64,000 nucleotides of DNA from Aeromicrobium sp. IC_218. Its GTDB lineage: Bacteria; Actinomycetota; Actinomycetes; Propionibacteriales; Nocardioidaceae. The stretch is from contig NZ_SJXM01000001.1 in assembly GCF_004336805.1 (NCBI RefSeq), positions 186,001 to 250,000 of the forward strand, read 5' to 3'. Each line of letters begins with the position of its first letter. Within the stretch, counting starts at the first letter, position 1. Of this stretch, positions 4,775 through 10,463 are shown in pieces. Both the position numbers and the translations under genes were made by a program. The notes beneath the pieces were generated by a model, which searched no databases, was not told where the DNA came from, and worked only from the letters and a program-made list of their open reading frames with translations.

Positions 4775-4847
4775 GCGCCTGTAGCTCAACGGATAGAGCA
4801 TCTGACTACGGATCAGAAGGTTTGGGGTTCGAATCCCTACAGGCGCG
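4775..4847 (+). tRNA. tRNA-Arg, anticodon ACG
   Basis: Full cloverleaf of 73 nt: acceptor stem GCGCCTG/CAGGCGC, D-arm with AGCTCAACGGATAGAGC, anticodon stem TCTGA/TCAGA, loop CTACGGA giving anticodon ACG at 4808-4810, T-arm GGGGTTCGAATCCC, discriminator G. CCA is not encoded. ACG needs A34-to-inosine editing; the enzyme TadA is encoded at 42976-43425 in this window. Confidence 0.97.
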
Positions 4848-4853
4848 CAAGAC

Positions 4854-4889
4854 ACGAAGGGCCCCTCCCGCGCGGGAGGGGCCCTTCGT
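4854..4889. terminator. Perfect palindromic terminator after tRNA-Arg
   Basis: A 36-bp perfect palindrome (arm ACGAAGGGCCCCTCCCGC) centred at 4871/4872, directly after the tRNA and 17 bp before the stop codon of the convergent csoR-like gene. It should act on both strands. Confidence 0.85.
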
Positions 4890-4905: not shown

Positions 4906-5175
4906 CTAGGCGAGCGACAGGAACAGCTTCTCCATCTTCTGCACGTCCACGCTCTCGAGGTCGCCGTCGTTGTCGGCGAGGCAGTGCTGCAGCCCGGTCG
5001 CGACGATCGCGTACCCGGCCCTCGACAGCGCCTTGTTGACGGCCGCGAGCTGGGTGAGGACGGACTCGCAGTCCGACCCCTCCTCCATCATGCGGATGAC
5101 GCTGGCGAGGTGACCGTTGGCGCGCTTCATGCGCGTGATGATCGCCTTGACCTCGGTCGGCTCCAGGTCCACCAT
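4906..5175 (-). CDS. CsoR/RcnR-family repressor, possibly CstR-like sulfur sensor
   Basis: 89 aa, the usual length of the all-helical CsoR/FrmR/RcnR family (DUF156). The conserved helix-1 stretch is KAIITRMKRANGHLASV, with Cys36 (GSDCES) and Cys65 (LQHCLAD). Copper-binding CsoR uses Cys-His-Cys (36/61/65); here position 61 is Gly and a His sits at 64. Loss of the middle His with two retained cysteines is the pattern of persulfide-sensing CstR rather than copper CsoR, although His64 could still ligate metal. It shares one base (TGATG) with the end of the DUF302 gene, so the two are translationally coupled. Its G-tract operators lie upstream of that pair. Confidence 0.88.
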   Translation of the reverse strand: MVDLEPTEVKAIITRMKRANGHLASVIRMMEEGSDCESVLTQLAAVNKALSRAGYAIVATGLQHCLADNDGDLESVDVQKMEKLFLSLA

Positions 5176-5573
5176 CAGCGGCCACCGCCCAGCGCCGCGA
5201 GGGCCTGCGTCAGCCGTCCCCGGGCGTCCGCCGCCACCGGTCCGAGCGCGTCGCCACCGAAGGTCGTCATCGCGGCGGGGTCGAAGGCCTCGACGACCGT
5301 GGTGGAGTCACCGGCCGAGCGCACCACGACGTTGCAGGGCAGCGGCGCGGCGACCGAGGGGTCGGCCTGCAGCGCACGGTGGGCCAGCTCGGGACGGCAC
5401 GCGCCCAGGATCACCTGCGGCGCGACGTCGACGCCGAGCTTCTGCTTCAGCGTCGAGCGCAGGTCGATCTCGGTGAGCACGCCGAAGCCGGCGCCCACCA
5501 GGTGCTCCCGCACCGCCTCGACGGTCTCGTCGTAGGGGCGCTCCACCGTCGTCCGGATCGTGTACTCGGCCAT
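5175..5573 (-). CDS. DUF302 domain protein
   Basis: 132 aa, a complete single DUF302 domain: N-terminal strand YTIRTTVERPYDETVEAVREHL, GFGVLTEIDL, then the family core VILGACRPELAHRAL, LPCNVVVR and a C-terminal helix. No signal peptide or membrane segment, so probably cytoplasmic. The family's biochemical role is not established; it recurs beside sulfur-trafficking or metal-stress genes. It is first in a two-gene operon with the CsoR/CstR-like repressor and is transcribed away from an MMPL exporter across two palindromic operators, so it should be induced by the same signal. Confidence 0.85.
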   Translation of the reverse strand: MAEYTIRTTVERPYDETVEAVREHLVGAGFGVLTEIDLRSTLKQKLGVDVAPQVILGACRPELAHRALQADPSVAAPLPCNVVVRSAGDSTTVVEAFDPAAMTTFGGDALGPVAADARGRLTQALAALGGGR

Positions 5574-5637
5574 GGGCAGGCACTCCTCGGTTCAGTCCGC
5601 GGCGCCCTCCGGCGCCCTCGGGTGCCACGGTACACCG

Positions 5638-5690
5638 AACCCCCCAGGGGGATGTTATGGTCGCAGTCGTATCCCCCCGGGGGGATACGA
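5638..5690. promoter_or_regulatory. Two CsoR-type G-tract operators in the divergent promoter
   Basis: Operator 1 (5638-5653) contains ACCCCCCAGGGGGAT. Operator 2 (5667-5690) is a perfect 24-bp palindrome with arm TCGTATCCCCCC. C-run/G-run palindromes flanked by A/T pairs are the known operator type of CsoR and CstR. TATGGT at 5656-5661 between them could be the -10 box of the rightward MMPL promoter, so operator 1 would cover the -35 side and operator 2 the transcription start. The same sites lie upstream of the leftward DUF302-csoR operon. Confidence 0.85.
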
Positions 5691-5721
5691 CACGTCCCCG
5701 ATCCAGAACGGAAGCCCCTCC

Positions 5722-7911
5722 ATGAGCGCCACCCCCACGCGTCCTCCCCGAAGTCGCCGCCGCGGGTCCACCACCGCGGCCGCCGCCGGCCCGCTCGGAC
5801 GTCTCGGCACCTGGGTCACGGACCACGCGCGTCTGGTCACGGTCGTGTGGGTGGTCGTCGTCGTCGGGTTGGGTGCGTTCGCGCCGAAGGTCGAGCACGA
5901 GCTGTCGGGGGCCGGGTGGCAGGCCGACGGCTCGGAGTCGGTGGAAGCTCGCGAGCTGGCGCGCGAGCACTTCGGCGGCAACGCCTCGTCCGCGATCCAG
6001 GTGGTCGTCCGCTCCGACGACGGCGCGGTCACGCAAGGTGAGGGTGCCGAGGTGCTGGACGCGGTCACCCGCGTGCTGGAGGACGAGCCGCGCATCGCCG
6101 ACGTCGTGCCTCCCGCCCCCGGGGCGACCTTGTCGCAGGACGGCTCGACCGCCGTCGTCCTGGCCGGCGCCGGTGCCGACACCAACGAGATGGTGCGCGT
6201 CGCGACCGACCTCAAGGACGAGCTCCAGGACCTCTCCACCCCCACGGTGTCGGTCGACCCGACCGGCTCGTCGCTGCTGTGGAGCGACTTCAACGAGGCC
6301 AACCTCGACGCGATGCTGGCGTCCGAGCTGATGTCGTGGCCGGTGACCCTGGGCATCCTCGTGCTCGCGTTCGGCGCCCTCGTCGCCGCCGGCCTGCCGC
6401 TGCTGCTGACCCTGGCCGGGCTCGTGGCCTCGGCGGGGTCGCTCGTCCTGATCAACGAGCTGGTCCCGGTCTCGATCTGGGCGATGAACTTCGCCATGAT
6501 GTTCGCGCTCGCCCTGGGCATCGACTACGCGCTGTTCGTCGTCGTCCGCTACCGCGCCGCCCGGGCCGCGCAGCGCGAGGCCGGCCGCGACGGACGGGAC
6601 GCCCGCCGGCTCGCGGTCGCCCAGACCATGGACACGGCCGGCAAGGCCGTCCTGCTCTCCGGGCTCACCGTCCTCGTCTCGCTGTCCGCGGTGATGCTCG
6701 TCCCGTCTCCGTCCTTCAGGTCGATGGCCGGCGGCATCATGCTCTCGGTCGTGTTCGTCCTGGCCGCCACGGTCACCCTGCTGCCCCTGGTGCTGTTCGC
6801 GCTCGACGACCGCATCGACAGGCTGTCGCTGCCGTGGGTCCGCTCGGGCGGACACCGCTCGGCGCGCTTCGCCGCCTGGGGCGAGCGACTCTGGCGGCGG
6901 CCCCTCGTGTGGGGTGGCGCCTCGCTCGTGGTGCTCGTGGCCCTCGCCGCACCGGTGCTCGGGCTGACGACCGCCATGCCCTCGATCAAGGTGCTGCCCG
7001 AGGACGCGTCCGCACGCATCGGCTACGACCGGGTGAAGGAGTCGTTCGGCGACGGGGCGCCCGGGACCCTGCAGGTCGTGGCGGACGAGGCCGACGTCCG
7101 CGCCGTCGTGTCCGTCCTGGCCTCCGACCCGGGTCTGCAGGCGTCGATGCCGGCGGTGCCGGCCGGCGACGACAGCGGGCTGGTGATGGTCCAGGCCGTC
7201 CCGACGGTCGACCCGTCCGAGCCCGCTCTCGCGCAGACCGTCGAACGACTGCGCGGCGACCTGCCGTCCTCCGCCCTGGTGGGCGGGGCGCCGGTCGAGA
7301 ACCTCGACCTCAAGGCCCAGCTCGACGAGTCCACGCCGCTGGTCGTCGGGGTCGTCCTCGTCCTGGGGTTCCTGCTGCTCCTGGTCGCCCTGCAGGCGCC
7401 ACTCATCGCCCTGCTCGGCACGCTGGCCAGCCTGCTGTCGACGGGCGCCGCGTTCGGCGTGGCCCGACTGGTGTTCCAGGAGGGGCACGGTGCCGACCTG
7501 CTCGGCTTCGAGGCCCAGGGATTCCTGGACGCCTGGGCGCCGGTGTTCTTCTTCGCCATGATCTTCGCCATCGCGATGGACTACACCGTCTTCCTCCTGG
7601 CGTCGGCCAAGGAGCACTTCGAGCGCAGCGGCGATCCCAAGGACGCCATGGTCGGGTCGCTGGCCCACTCCGGGCGGGTGATCTTCGCCGCCGGCGCGGT
7701 GATGGTCGCGGTGTTCTTCACCTTCGCCCTGTCGGGGCCGATCCCGCCCAAGGAGATGGGCGTCGTCCTGGGAGTCGCGGTCCTGCTGGACGCCTTCCTG
7801 GTCCGGCTCGTGCTCCTGCCCGTCATGCTCCGGCTCGCGGGCGGAGCCGCCTGGTACGTCCCCGCCTGGCTGCGCAAGGTCCTGCCGAGCATCACCTTCG
7901 CGCACGACTGA
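5722..7911 (+). CDS. MMPL/RND-family membrane exporter
   Basis: 729 aa from ATG 5722; upstream in-frame codons cross the operators and were excluded. Topology is that of actinobacterial MmpL/RND pumps: TM1 near residues 35-55 (LVTVVWVVVVVGLGAF), an extracellular domain, five TM segments with the proton-relay-like ALALGIDYALFVVVRYR, then a repeat half with a second domain and FAMIFAIAMDYTVFLLASAKE. The two DY motifs are hallmarks of the MMPL family. Substrate unknown: in this family lipids, dyes or small hydrophobic compounds. It is the first gene right of the G-tract operators and is followed by a DUF2892 protein, so export is tied to the sensed sulfur or metal stress. Confidence 0.9.
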   Translation: MSATPTRPPRSRRRGSTTAAAAGPLGRLGTWVTDHARLVTVVWVVVVVGLGAFAPKVEHELSGAGWQADGSESVEARELAREHFGGNASSAIQVVVRSDDGAVTQGEGAEVLDAVTRVLEDEPRIADVVPPAPGATLSQDGSTAVVLAGAGADTNEMVRVATDLKDELQDLSTPTVSVDPTGSSLLWSDFNEANLDAMLASELMSWPVTLGILVLAFGALVAAGLPLLLTLAGLVASAGSLVLINELVPVSIWAMNFAMMFALALGIDYALFVVVRYRAARAAQREAGRDGRDARRLAVAQTMDTAGKAVLLSGLTVLVSLSAVMLVPSPSFRSMAGGIMLSVVFVLAATVTLLPLVLFALDDRIDRLSLPWVRSGGHRSARFAAWGERLWRRPLVWGGASLVVLVALAAPVLGLTTAMPSIKVLPEDASARIGYDRVKESFGDGAPGTLQVVADEADVRAVVSVLASDPGLQASMPAVPAGDDSGLVMVQAVPTVDPSEPALAQTVERLRGDLPSSALVGGAPVENLDLKAQLDESTPLVVGVVLVLGFLLLLVALQAPLIALLGTLASLLSTGAAFGVARLVFQEGHGADLLGFEAQGFLDAWAPVFFFAMIFAIAMDYTVFLLASAKEHFERSGDPKDAMVGSLAHSGRVIFAAGAVMVAVFFTFALSGPIPPKEMGVVLGVAVLLDAFLVRLVLLPVMLRLAGGAAWYVPAWLRKVLPSITFAHD

Positions 7912-7938
7912 CCCGTGCCCCCAGCCGAGAGGAGCTCC

Positions 7939-8142
7939 ATGAACATCGACCGTGCCGTCATGCTGCTGGCCGGGACCCTCGTCCTCGTGAGCGTCGTGCT
8001 CGCCGTGACCGTCTCGACCCGGTGGCTCGTCCTCACCGCGTTCGTGGGCGCCAACCTGCTCCAGGCGAGCCTCACCGGCTTCTGCCCCGCGGCCAGCGTC
8101 CTACGCCGCTTCGGGGTCGCCAGCGGGTGCGCGCTGCGCTGA
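7939..8142 (+). CDS. DUF2892 family inner-membrane protein
   Basis: 67 aa from ATG 7939, preceded by GAGAGGAG. Two predicted TM segments (about residues 5-25 and 30-50) enclose the family core: IDRAVMLLAGTLVLVSV, then LLQASLTGFCPAASVLRRFGV with the conserved FCP. DUF2892 domains are often fused to or beside rhodanese and sulfide-handling genes. It lies 27 bp after the MMPL gene in the same transcript, so it joins the predicted CsoR/CstR regulon. Confidence 0.85.
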   Translation: MNIDRAVMLLAGTLVLVSVVLAVTVSTRWLVLTAFVGANLLQASLTGFCPAASVLRRFGVASGCALR

Positions 8143-8152
8143 CCCCCGGACG

Positions 8153-8193
8153 CGACGGCGCCCCGCCCGACGAGGTCGGACGGGGCGCCGTCG
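8153..8193. terminator. Bidirectional terminator between DUF2892 and MFS genes
   Basis: CGACGGCGCCCCG at 8153-8165 pairs with CGGGGCGCCGTCG further right, extended by GA/TC pairs with one mismatch, around the small loop CGAGG. It separates two convergent genes. Confidence 0.75.
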
Positions 8194-8205
8194 GGCGTGT
8201 CGGGG

Positions 8206-9798
8206 TCAGCCGACGTGGACGCCGCCCTCGGGGCCGTCCGTGGCCAGCTCCTCGTGCTTGACGTTGAGGAACGTCCAGATCGCGAGCGAGCCGATGGCGA
8301 TGAGCACGGCGCCGACCAGGAAGGCCGCCGTCGCGCCCTCGGTGAACGACCCGAGGAAGGCCAGCTGGCCGGCCGCGTCCGCGGGCATGCCCTGGGCGGT
8401 GAGGTCGCCGCCCAGCGAGTCCTTGGTGCCCTGGGCCGCCTGCAGGGCCACGGTGCTGAGGATGGCCAGGCCGAGCGCGCCGCCGACCTGCTGCATCGTG
8501 TTCAGGACGCCGGACCCGACACCCGAGTCCTCCGGACGCAGGTGGTGCACGGCCGTGAGGGTCAGCGGCACGAAGACCGCGCCCATGCCGACCGACATCA
8601 GGACGATGAACGGGAAGATCGACGCCCAGTAGTTCACGTCGGCGCCCAGGTGGCCACCGTTCGCGAGCGCCGCCAGGTCGGACGCGCCGTGCGGGACGTC
8701 CAGCCGCGAGAACCCGAACAGGGCCGCGGAGGCCATGAGCGTGCCGACGCCGGCGATGAAGCGCGGGTCGATGCGGTTGACCAGGTTCGACGAGACGCCG
8801 GCACCGATGACGATGCCCACCGAGAACGGCAGGAACGCGAAGCCGGTGTGCAGCGGGCTGTAGCCGACCACGAGCTGGATGAACAGGCTCAGGAAGTAGA
8901 ACATCGCGAACATCGCGGCCGGGACGATCATCATCACCAGGAAGCTCGTGGCGCGGGTGCGGTTGGCGAACACGCGCACGGGCAGCAGCGGGTGGGCCAC
9001 CCGCGACTCGATGACGGCGAACACCGCGAGCAGGACGACGCCCGCGGCCAGGGACGCGATCGTCCACGGGTCGCCCCAACCGTGGGCCTCCTCGCCGGCG
9101 CGGGAGAACCCGTAGACCAGGCCGAGCAGGCCGAGGGTGCCGGTGATGGCACCGGGCACGTCGAGCTCGCCCGGGTGCGACTCGGACTCGGGCAGGAAGC
9201 GCGGCGCCGCGAAGGCCGCCAGCAGGCCGATCGGGACGTTGATGAGGAAGGTCCAGCGCCAGCCCTCGAGCCCCAGGAGGGGGTCGAGACCGGTCAGCCA
9301 GCCGCCGAGGATGAGGCCGACGGCCGCGCCGGCGCCCGACATCGCCGCGTAGACGGCGAACGCGCGGTTGCGGGCGGGTCCGGCCGGGAACGTCGTCGTG
9401 ATGAGCGCGAGCGCGGCGGGGGAGGCCAGCGCGGCGCCCAGGCCCTGCAGGCCGCGGGCCGCGAGCAGCAGGCCCTCGTTCGCGGCGAAGCCGCCGAGCA
9501 GCGAGGCGATGGCGAAGACGGCCAGGCCGATCATGAACACGCGGCGGCGTCCGTACAGGTCGCCGAGGCGGCCGCCGAGCAGCAGCAGTCCGCCGAAGGC
9601 GAGGGCGTAGCCGGTGACGATCCAGGTGAGGTTGGCGTCGTCGATGCCCAGGTCGGCACCGATGAAGGGCAGCGCGATGTTGGCGATGGAGGCGTCCAGC
9701 ACCACCATCAGCTGCGCCACCGAGATGAGCAGCAGCGCCCATCCCAGGTGGAGCTCGCGGCCCGAGGACTGGGCCTCGGGCGTGGTCGTGTCGGTCAT
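8206..9798 (-). CDS. MFS drug exporter, DHA2 (14-TM, EmrB/QacA) family
   Basis: 530 aa. The N-terminus has LMVVLDASIANIALPFI (DHA2 motif D1), motif A GGRLGDLYGRRRVFMIG, motif C in GAGAAVGLILGGWLTG, and TM-rich sequence to the end consistent with 14 TM segments. Proton-driven efflux of hydrophobic drugs is the family role. RBS AAGGA lies 12 bp upstream of ATG. The next gene upstream on the same strand is a TetR repressor; the 74-bp gap contains a short tetranucleotide repeat. The pair looks like an autoregulated tetR-exporter operon controlled from the palindrome at 10484-10510. Confidence 0.92.
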   Translation of the reverse strand: MTDTTTPEAQSSGRELHLGWALLLISVAQLMVVLDASIANIALPFIGADLGIDDANLTWIVTGYALAFGGLLLLGGRLGDLYGRRRVFMIGLAVFAIASLLGGFAANEGLLLAARGLQGLGAALASPAALALITTTFPAGPARNRAFAVYAAMSGAGAAVGLILGGWLTGLDPLLGLEGWRWTFLINVPIGLLAAFAAPRFLPESESHPGELDVPGAITGTLGLLGLVYGFSRAGEEAHGWGDPWTIASLAAGVVLLAVFAVIESRVAHPLLPVRVFANRTRATSFLVMMIVPAAMFAMFYFLSLFIQLVVGYSPLHTGFAFLPFSVGIVIGAGVSSNLVNRIDPRFIAGVGTLMASAALFGFSRLDVPHGASDLAALANGGHLGADVNYWASIFPFIVLMSVGMGAVFVPLTLTAVHHLRPEDSGVGSGVLNTMQQVGGALGLAILSTVALQAAQGTKDSLGGDLTAQGMPADAAGQLAFLGSFTEGATAAFLVGAVLIAIGSLAIWTFLNVKHEELATDGPEGGVHVG

Positions 9799-9810
9799 GC
9801 GGGGGGTCCT

Positions 9811-9827
9811 TGTCTGTCTGTCTGTCT
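9811..9827. repeat. Tetranucleotide repeat (TGTC x4) in leader of the exporter gene
   Basis: TGTCTGTCTGTCTGTCT, a little over four units, lies 13 bp before the exporter start codon on the transcribed side (GACA units in the mRNA sense). Its place next to the ribosome-binding site could make translation sensitive to slippage, but four units is short. Confidence 0.7.
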
Positions 9828-9872
9828 CGGAGGTCCGGCGCGGGGGAGGGCCGGACGAGGAGGGAGGTGCGC

Positions 9873-10463
9873 TCAGCGCGTGGCGGAGGGCACGATGATC
9901 TGGTCGATCACGCGGGAGATGAGGCCGGGGTCGGCCGCCTCTCCCATCACGATCACGTGCTGCAGGACGATGCCGGCGAGGGCCGGCTCGAAGAGCTCGA
10001 GGTCGATGTCGTCACGGAGCTCGCCGCGGGCGGCGGCTCGCTCCCAGATGAGCCGCGACGCGGCGATCTTGGGCCCGAGGACGTCGCGGCGGAAGGCCTC
10101 GGCGAACTCGGGGTCACGGGCCAGGGCCGTCACGACGGCCCCGAACGCCCCGATCGTGGTCTGGTCCGTCAGGCCGCCCATGCCGCAGAAGACGGCCTCG
10201 AGGTCGCCCTTGAGCGTGCCGGTGTCGGCGATGCTCGTCGGTCCCTTCGAGTGGACGAGGGCCTCGATGACGAGTCCCACCTTGCTGCTCCACCGGCGGT
10301 ACAGCGTCGCCTTGGACGCCTTGGCCCGCGTGGCCACGGCGTCCATGGTCAGCCGGTCGTAGCCCACGTCGGCCAGCACCTCGAGCGTGGCGGCGAGGAT
10401 CTCCAGCTCGCGGTCGCCCTCGATGCGGGGGCGGACGGAGCCGGGGTCGGCGGGGCAGGTCAT
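9873..10463 (-). CDS. TetR-family repressor of the adjacent exporter
   Basis: 196 aa. The TetR HTH lies near residues 20-65 (ILAATLEVLADVGYDRLTMD, then ASKATLYRRWSSKVGLV). The C-terminal ligand domain includes a TetR_C-like stretch GIVLQHVIVMGEAADPG. RBS GAAGG precedes ATG. It is the first gene of a tetR-MFS operon and has a 27-bp palindromic operator 20 bp upstream. The ligand is probably an exporter substrate. Confidence 0.92.
   Translation of the reverse strand: MTCPADPGSVRPRIEGDRELEILAATLEVLADVGYDRLTMDAVATRAKASKATLYRRWSSKVGLVIEALVHSKGPTSIADTGTLKGDLEAVFCGMGGLTDQTTIGAFGAVVTALARDPEFAEAFRRDVLGPKIAASRLIWERAAARGELRDDIDLELFEPALAGIVLQHVIVMGEAADPGLISRVIDQIIVPSATR

Follow-up and report, generated by a model that had tools for sequence, protein, structure and literature searches.

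A probable CstR-type sulfur switch that appears to turn on a cysteine-free membrane pump in Aeromicrobium

What does a CsoR-family repressor sense when the gene it faces encodes an MMPL exporter, and what would such an exporter move? We addressed this question in a 64,000-nucleotide stretch of the Aeromicrobium sp. IC_218 genome (hereafter the window), where genes for a repressor and DUF302 are transcribed away from a second pair, encoding an MMPL exporter and DUF2892 (Table 1), an arrangement that our analysis confirmed. All four protein products exceed the Pfam gathering scores, the stop codon of duf302 overlaps the start codon of the repressor gene (TGATG), and the DUF2892 frame may start at 7939 (ATG) rather than at the earlier-proposed 7915 (GTG). 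The module is bounded by two strong hairpins, both likely terminators, and flanked by LacI-, MFS- and TetR-type genes.

Table 1. Features of the divergent module; positions are those of the window.
Feature	Position	Strand	Basis
Strong hairpin past cstR, ahead of convergent tRNA-Arg; likely terminator	4854..4889	-	fold -38.4 kcal/mol, z -4.2
CstR-like CsoR-family repressor, 89 aa; Cys36, Gly61, Cys65	4906..5175	-	PF02583 1.3e-21, residue typing, ML tree
DUF302 protein, 132 aa	5175..5573	-	PF03625
Predicted -10 promoter element of duf302-cstR (TACCGT), 5 nt past the proximal operator	5627..5632	-	sequence
Operator 1 (AACCCCCCAGGGGGAT), duf302-cstR-proximal	5638..5653	.	predicted G-tract palindrome
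Operator 2 (ATCCCCCCGGGGGGAT), mmpL-proximal, within a perfect 26-bp palindrome (5666-5691)	5671..5686	.	predicted
MMPL/RND exporter, 729 aa	5722..7911	+	PF03176 8.2e-61, orthologs, predicted MmpL3-like fold
YgaP-like TM protein (DUF2892), 67 aa	7939..8142	+	PF11127 9.1e-12
Strong hairpin past DUF2892; likely terminator	8143..8205	+	fold -53 kcal/mol, z -4.7

Translation and alignment of the repressor confirmed the residues named in the first-pass annotation, Cys36, Gly61, His64 and Cys65: two cysteines occupy the sensing positions and the copper-ligand histidine is replaced, as in CstR-type members, so that the Cys-His-Cys Cu(I) site of copper CsoR is incomplete. Glycine is found at residue 61 in all 77 distinct rows aligned with the repressor as query, in 9/9 rows from loci with a persulfide dioxygenase-rhodanese (PDO) gene and in 16/18 MMPL-locus rows (the other two carry Ser and Ala), with eight Gly and one Asn among nine further MMPL-locus rows, whereas five metal-sensor references, 6ahx and 28/28 copper-paralog rows all carry His61. 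The proposal that the histidine had shifted to position 64 does not hold: residue 64 is variable in the window clade (among 77 rows, 36 have His and 29 Gln), and a histidine there is likewise seen in two copper CsoRs that retain His61 and in most copper-paralog rows, and because of this variability we dropped His64 as a relocated ligand. A maximum-likelihood tree of 139 rows and few columns, from which the window's own repressor (L115), nine MMPL-locus rows and the copper paralog of the same genome (L126) were left out, places 27 copper paralogs, together with the metal-sensor references, on one side of a 100/91 branch and the window clade with 7mq1 on the other. The PDB names 7mq1 copper-sensing; we take it to be a CsoR-family member with a role in persulfide sensing. 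The repressor is thereby placed, through its clade, with sulfur-linked CsoRs, apart from the metal-sensing members and outside copper CsoR. Together with operator type and the neighbours seen in relatives, the tree and residue 61 support the earlier assignment as CstR-like, a predicted class that is upheld by comparison across the family.

Could the protein nonetheless be a copper CsoR and the module a copper defence? It does share with such sensors the Pfam family, G-tract operators and two retained cysteines; the PDB labels close relatives as copper repressors, and the TbD1 (mmpS6-mmpL6) locus has been described, in passages of PMC9048740, as influencing the copper response of M. bovis. However, not only is His61 missing and the tree position apart from the copper-sensor references, but the same genome encodes a second CsoR, with His61, beside the genes for an HMA protein and a copper-translocating P-type ATPase (TIGR01511, 540 bits; cut-off 397). 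This paralog has the family and a G-tract palindrome in common with the window repressor but differs in its Cys-His-Cys set, its copper-ATPase neighbour and its TACCCC..GGGGTA operator, its locus (L001/L126) carrying ATACCCCCGGGGGGTAT; copper ATPase and chaperone genes are its neighbours, whereas those of the window repressor are DUF302, MMPL and the flanking genes named above. The two operator types hardly overlap: with searched regions that differ between the two sets, the copper type occurs in 26/30 copper loci and in 2/80 loci of the window repressor clade, and the AWCCCC-N4-GGGGWT 16-mer in 0/30 copper loci. On residue, tree, operator and context we reject the copper reading, which we regard as highly improbable.

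Both G-tract palindromes that had been described between the operons are indeed present; they are spaced 33 bp apart, share the 16-bp consensus AWCCCC-N4-GGGGWT and are the only sites in the window with zero or one mismatch. When up to three mismatches are tolerated, the window shows no enrichment of the pattern, with 4 matches where 3.6 are expected. In the whole genome, an 18-bp version of the operator searched with up to two mismatches matches the module locus with none and five other places with two each. Among 80 related loci, the 16-mer AWCCCCNNNNGGGGWT occurs 132 times in the 265-bp upstream regions and three times in the remaining ~914 kb, and two sites are present in 46/49 loci with divergent MMPL, PDO or rhodanese genes; no operator of the AWCCCC-N4-GGGGWT type was found in 8/80 repressor loci. 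A TAnnnT motif begins 0-6 nt past the proximal operator in 48/72 loci (raw count), and a sigma-70 promoter scan returned 0 sites. The operator pair lies upstream of MMPL even where cstR is located elsewhere (L187 and L260), in support of the earlier view that MMPL is a target of the sensor. Comparison among loci thus supports the predicted operator, the promoter geometry and the membership of MMPL in the regulon.

The exporter combines family PF03176 with two Asp-Tyr pairs (D268-Y269 and D620-Y621) and a predicted MmpL-type fold, the features of proton-driven MMPL/RND exporters, transport itself being predicted. The pairs, which lie in the TM core and are kept in 71/71 aligned sequences of this MMPL branch, are presumably equivalent to those of MmpL3, whose role is known from MmpL3 work. 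MmpL3 also provides the closest solved structures by sequence, and the predicted fold is MmpL3-like (TM about 0.78, 23-24% identity); against the NCBIfam MmpL3 model NF052608, however, the protein scores 165 bits, below the cut-off of 1400. While it shares the predicted fold and both Asp-Tyr pairs with MmpL3, the trehalose monomycolate exporter, the window protein is shorter, nearly free of cysteine as a branch and set in another gene context. It contains no cysteine itself, as do 64/70 of its orthologs, compared with 3/33 control MMPLs (34 loci taken and 33 aligned, one gene being present twice as L125/L277). In simulations at the paralog-like frequencies of 0.0033 and 0.0016, 0/200 runs each were as low in cysteine as observed, whereas 35/200 were at an arbitrary frequency of 0.0008, so the depletion is valid relative to paralog-like frequencies and not to any low frequency.

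Where, then, does the sulfur connection come from? In relatives, the genes facing the repressor clade are either those for rhodanese, PDO-rhodanese and TauE or an MMPL(-DUF2892) cassette, and in some cases the two sets together; MMPL and PDO genes stand together on the repressor-divergent side in 17/80 loci. Plasmid clusters feature TauE, MBL, rhodanese and SQR (sulfide:quinone oxidoreductase) genes, with SQR included in the MMPL cluster of Rhodococcus plasmid pRhX5 and a sulfide-dehydrogenase/SQR-like gene in that of a Tsukamurella plasmid. Within 6 kb of MMPL orthologs we found a CsoR-family gene in 30/38 cases, DUF302 in 23/38 and PDO in 13/38; control flanks extend ~1.5 kb beyond the domain match, and the like-for-like comparison is therefore that of ~1.5-kb flanks, where a CsoR-family gene adjoins 11/29 orthologs vs. 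0/30 other MMPLs and any module gene 26/29 vs. 0/30. No CsoR-family gene was found in 8/38 MMPL loci, two of which are at contig ends; in three of the eight, an ArsR-like gene precedes MMPL in its place. By hand count, PDO is moderately commoner in genomes with MMPL (18/36) than in those without (119/357), a weak association on which strict co-occurrence is rejected. Some modules adjoin cadmium or cation-ATPase genes.

At the window locus itself, none of the PDO, sulfurtransferase and SQR genes of a cst-type sulfide oxidation operon were found, and query searches of the genome returned no matching PDO-rhodanese and no matching SQR, an empty result that by itself shows little. Sulfide and persulfide metabolism genes adjoin the repressor in many relatives and are absent beside the window copy; since this genome has no matching PDO-rhodanese or SQR, the sulfur link comes from relatives and not from the repressor's own neighbours. 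The first-pass annotation, which had an MMPL exporter replacing rhodanese or SQR, is only half right: in many relatives MMPL joins these genes, and the 17 loci and two plasmid clusters above lead us to reject replacement as a general rule. The window module is a reduced form of the arrangement in relatives, and of the earlier interpretation, which also suggested that a sulfur-containing or oxidized lipid-like compound may be exported, the CstR-like class, the sulfur context and the MMPL target are supported. Gene context also supports the sulfur link once suggested for DUF302 and DUF2892. Cys59 and Cys80 of DUF302 are kept in 63/63 aligned sequences, both cysteines being present in the PDB relatives 1j3m and 1q9u, and Cys49 of the YgaP-like protein in 23/23.

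In light of these results we consider it probable that the module is a CstR-type switch responsive to reactive sulfur species (RSS), with an RND pump and thiol proteins as its output in this genome. The reduced repressor is predicted to bind the two 16-bp operators, roughly three helical turns apart, and would thereby block both divergent promoters; modification of Cys36, with Cys65, by per- or polysulfide would release it, as reported for ScCsoR (PMC7533328), and derepress both divergent units, duf302-cstR and mmpL-DUF2892. The exporter would act as a proton-driven, MmpL3-like inner-membrane pump, nearly free of cysteine, that most likely either removes from the cell a hydrophobic or amphiphilic compound arising from sulfide or sulfane-sulfur stress or supplies envelope lipid under such stress. 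The most likely task of DUF302, with two invariant cysteines, and of the YgaP-like protein, with one, is to hold sulfane sulfur or hand it on. Going further, and only tentatively, the MMPL branch could be a dedicated exporter of sulfane sulfur, as hydrophobic S8, organic polysulfanes or persulfidated thiol conjugates, so that, under control of the same sensor, transport would take the place of persulfide dioxygenase, with its cysteine-free make-up an adaptation to a cargo that would persulfidate thiols.

A serious contender, though we place it somewhat short of even, is that the pump belongs to the RSS regulon yet moves ordinary envelope lipid for membrane repair or sealing and exports no sulfur compound at all; its likelihood overlaps with that of the RSS switch because it is one branch of that explanation. 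In its favour, the relatives with solved structures that come nearest to the pump export lipid (MmpL3), but the scarcity of cysteine is left unexplained, and MMPL and PDO cassettes, singly or together, are outputs of one repressor clade. It is unlikely, in our estimate, that the sensor answers to thiol oxidants and electrophiles generally (HOCl, quinones, hydroperoxides, HNO), with MMPL and DUF302 as a general thiol-stress output. In relatives from Nocardia and Aeromicrobium, genes for AhpD-like CxxC proteins (CMD family) are divergent from members of the repressor clade. Such genes face the repressor in 18 of the 33 loci that lack both a full MMPL and a PDO gene, and more general thiol stress is therefore conceivable; HNO is, moreover, reported to react with the CstR of S. 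aureus (PMC5480029). The rhodanese, PDO-rhodanese, TauE and SQR neighbours nevertheless indicate sulfide and sulfane sulfur. Carriage on metal-resistance islands, with Cd or Hg tolerance achieved through sulfide, would fit the CadD gene adjoining the A. massiliense locus, the cation ATPase, lspA or cadmium genes adjoining two plasmid copies and the alkylmercury lyase gene on pNF2, but the LacI-, MFS- and TetR-type surroundings of the window module speak against it and we find it very unlikely.

Bacteria are known to respond to sulfide and persulfide by oxidizing, transferring or reducing sulfane sulfur, or by exporting small oxyanions via TauE-type proteins. The presence of MMPL beside sulfide-detoxifying genes in many relatives points to an unrecognized branch of this defence, in which the RSS switch appears to turn on a cysteine-free membrane pump. 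If so, the known sulfide responses would be extended by lipid-type RND export, through an MMPL pump that is conserved, widely shared and also carried on plasmids, and there would be a way into the function of DUF302, DUF2892 and an MMPL subfamily that has no name so far.

Known systems place the module in context. Within the portions of text covered by our literature search, no paper links MMPL to CstR or persulfide control (including PMC7533328, PMC5480029, PMC9048740, PMC6305408, PMC5037610, PMC9405070, PMC10318464, PMC12175524, PMC11722801 and PMC6304351). The SUL module of Arthrobacter plasmids (pA40H2; passages of PMC6305408), known from annotation, shares CsoR and DUF302 and also holds a sulfur dioxygenase, two rhodaneses and TauE, but has an MFS transporter and no MMPL. 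As in the window, a CsoR-like dithiol repressor, with the cysteine pair C31/C60, adjoins its targets in the cst operon of Staphylococcus aureus (CstR, cstA, cstB, sqr, tauE), the output of which differs in being enzymatic sulfide oxidation; the direct targets given in the consulted part of PMC5480029 include no MMPL. Also close is the circuit of ScCsoR, PDO, rhodanese and a sulfite transporter in Streptomyces coelicolor, described in PMC7533328, whose main text nowhere uses the term MMPL. The window locus differs from it in having no PDO, rhodanese or TauE, but ScCsoR is an actinobacterial CsoR-like sensor of sulfane sulfur, the role proposed here for the window repressor; its sensor residues Cys37/Cys66 are 29 residues apart, as are Cys36 and Cys65, and the gene types of its circuit recur in the window's relatives.

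The divergent four-gene layout claimed in the first-pass annotation is borne out by translation and Pfam matches, and the two G-tract palindromes it placed between the operons are present, spaced 33 bp apart. The stop codon of DUF302 overlaps the start codon of the repressor, and the two are therefore probably translated as one unit; by folding, strong hairpins close the outer ends of both module transcripts. One flank carries a tRNA-Arg(acg) gene (4775-4848), with a LacI-type gene beyond. The same tRNA flanks the MMPL module of a second species of the genus (locus L187, 8380-8455), the gene content of the two modules differs, and the tRNA is a possible integration site. On the opposite flank, MFS-type transporter and TetR-type regulator genes adjoin the module on the other strand (8206-10463), a stretch in which no module-type operator was found with up to three mismatches allowed.

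Module features in the window, the host copper-type locus and plasmid-borne gene orders
Feature	Position	Strand	Family, context or gene order
Repressor	4906-5175	minus	PF02583
DUF302	5175-5573	minus	PF03625
Operator 1 palindrome	5638-5653		148-bp divergent region; predicted from sequence
Operator 2 palindrome	5671-5686		148-bp divergent region; predicted from sequence
MMPL pump	5722-7911	plus	PF03176
Small membrane protein (DUF2892/YgaP-like)	7939-8142	plus	PF11127
Copper-type CsoR paralog locus	L126 2229-5086 / L001 (G000:C11, own genome)		
Tsukamurella plasmid			CsoR-DUF302 opposite MMPL-DUF2892-DsbA-FAD oxidoreductase
pBD2			MMPL-YgaP-DUF302-TauE-CsoR-MBL
pRhX5			DUF2892 opposite MMPL-CsoR; nearby FAD oxidoreductase, MBL, rhodanese, TauE
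pNF2			DUF2892 opposite MMPL-CsoR-DUF2892-DUF302

Among related loci retrieved with the repressor as query, of which the best 80 of 100 confirmed ones were counted, the 16-mer AWCCCCNNNNGGGGWT occurs 132 times in 265-bp upstream regions versus three times elsewhere, with two operators in 60 loci, one in 12 and none in eight, and a pair spacing of 30-39 bp. Within these best 80, the 49 loci with a divergent MMPL, persulfide dioxygenase (PDO) or rhodanese gene have two sites in 46 cases, one in two and none in one; without such a gene, 14 of 31 have two. In 48 of 72 loci (raw count), a TAnnnT box begins 0-6 nt past the operator on the side of the repressor, which fits promoter occlusion as the way in which the repressor would act.

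The regulator had been called CstR-like as opposed to a copper CsoR, and the phylogeny agrees: in a maximum-likelihood tree of 139 rows, built on few columns and with long branches for the references, a branch at 100/91 parts 27 copper paralogs, five metal-sensor references and the untyped 6ahx from the window clade plus 7mq1. The PDB lists the latter as a copper repressor; we take it to be the S. pneumoniae persulfide sensor CstR. In an alignment of distinct rows, residue 36 is Cys in all repressor rows, and Cys65 is absent from two rows only, one of them from an MMPL locus and the other truncated. Residue 61 is His in the metal-sensor references and in 28/28 copper-paralog rows, Asn in 7mq1, and Gly in 77/77 repressor-query, 9/9 PDO-locus and 16/18 MMPL-locus rows (the other two being Ser and Ala); nine further MMPL-locus rows hold eight Gly and one Asn. 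The probable CstR-type class stands on comparison, and we infer the inducer of the switch from homologs.

The host does possess a second CsoR-family gene, adjoining a P-type ATPase that scores over the cut-off of a copper-translocating model and a heavy-metal-associated (HMA) domain protein. Its site, ATACCCCCGGGGGGTAT, is a 17-bp one, unlike the 16-bp type of the window. TACCCC..GGGGTA-type sites occur in 26 of 30 copper-paralog loci and the window 16-mer in none of the 30, in searches spanning ~3.2 kb each, against copper-type sites in two of 80 window-clade loci (best 80 of 100) over the unequal span of 800 bp upstream. Across relatives there is hardly any overlap between the two operator codes, so operator sequence and spacing seem to keep the paralogs insulated from each other.

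In the same best 80 of 100 loci, with genes named from Pfam/NCBIfam scans of members of L046, L037 and L033, DUF302 lies ahead of the repressor in 43; 35 loci have a divergent MMPL (18 without PDO, 17 with PDO on that side), 12 have PDO but no MMPL, and 33 have neither, the last group including two loci with MMPL fragments (L057, L100) and a rearranged one (L059), some loci being cut at contig ends. The survey for the four-gene order upheld its core, DUF302-repressor/MMPL without PDO, in 14 of these 80, and the small membrane gene was detected in four of the 14 by tblastn, which so short a gene may escape. In A. massiliense (L033), counted among the 18, a rhodanese and a decayed PDO gene follow cstR on the other side from MMPL (6328-7567), with a CadD gene next (8050-8643); loss of the enzyme arm seems to be under way in this module. 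A divergent AhpD-like gene, of the CMD family in two members scanned, occupies 18 of the 33 loci with neither MMPL nor PDO. AhpD-like CxxC proteins lie divergent from members of this repressor clade in six loci of the genus (L254-L258, L260), most with paired operators, and in Nocardia loci within L074-L109; we read these proteins as a putative third output of the sensor.

MMPL matches were found in 37 of 393 class genomes, 36 of them, own genome included, with an ortholog (identity 52% or more; one match at 38% left out). Of 38 other ortholog loci, 30 have a CsoR-family gene within 6 kb, the one in L193 being a 25-residue remnant; over the same distance DUF302 is present in 23, PDO in 13, rhodanese in 12, a YgaP-like gene in 12 and TauE in 11. 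None of the queried module genes flanks any of 30 control MMPLs, which were picked out of the family with Pfam; among 29 ortholog loci with flanks of similar extent, 26 carry one or more of these genes and 11 carry CsoR-family genes. In another genome of the genus (G070), the MMPL-DUF2892 pair (L187) has two operators despite a distant repressor (L260), which itself faces an AhpD-like gene with two operators; this is an independent sign of MMPL as a likely target, and its apparent regulon membership stands on comparison. Three orthologs without CsoR have an ArsR-like stretch in front (L203 5412-5750, L208 5550-5924, L214 8372-8581), two confirmed as ArsR-type by Pfam. A C-x3-C near the C-terminus marks those of L203 and L208, and perhaps another thiol sensor has taken over there. 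MMPL matches at E 1e-100 or better occur in 43 of 72,556 plasmid records, 40 of them Rhodococcus; gene orders were read for four of the 43, and pA40H2 was examined as well because of the SUL module described in the literature. On pRhX5 the oxidoreductase has a match at 3e-98 to mitochondrial sulfide:quinone oxidoreductase (SQR), all 15 matches of the Tsukamurella one at 1e-10 are sulfide dehydrogenase/SQR chains (1e-17 or weaker), and the pNF2 stretch shown holds no sulfur enzyme.

In the host genome, a PDO-rhodanese query yielded no more than a partial match at 33% and a fragment resembling rhodanese, and two SQR queries one 32% partial match and nothing, respectively, which makes the window copy a reduced form of the module. 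By hand count, PDO is present in 18 of 36 MMPL genomes (the decayed A. massiliense gene included) versus 119 of 357 others. The pump orthologs are poor in cysteine: 64 of 70 have none, five have one and one has two, or 0.14 per 1000 residues versus 3.29 in 33 aligned control MMPLs. In simulations that began without Cys at the root and used a control-like frequency, a mean of 66 cysteines arose and none of 200 runs stayed at or below the seven observed; with the frequency cut to one quarter, 35 of 200 did. Two cysteines are kept in DUF302 (63/63), one in the YgaP-like protein (23/23) and a C-x-C in TauE (35/36; cluster of, for example, L046 2857-3687 and relatives). Asp-Tyr pairs, which would have a role in proton relay as in MmpL3, stand at 268/269 and 620/621 in 71/71 MMPL sequences. 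Export of a sulfur cargo in the strict sense is, in our view, unlikely; supply of an envelope lipid under sulfur stress is conceivable, and we hold it tentatively.

By sequence and by predicted fold (27-sequence alignment, mean pLDDT 78.5, pTM 0.76), the pump is nearest to MmpL3 (TM about 0.78), and it scores below the curated MmpL3 cut-off. The available portions of the literature searched hold no report linking MMPL to CstR-type or persulfide control. ScCsoR of S. coelicolor keeps PDO, rhodanese and sulfite transporter genes repressed until Cys37 is persulfidated, a release in which Cys66 takes part (PMC7533328); in S. aureus, cstA, cstB and sqr are under the control of CstR (PMC5480029); a Thermus CsoR-family protein governs sulfur oxidation via a different, non-G-tract site (PMC10318464); DUF302 is found within sox clusters (PMC5037610); and the Arthrobacter SUL module joins CsoR, DUF302, PDO, rhodaneses and TauE (PMC6305408).
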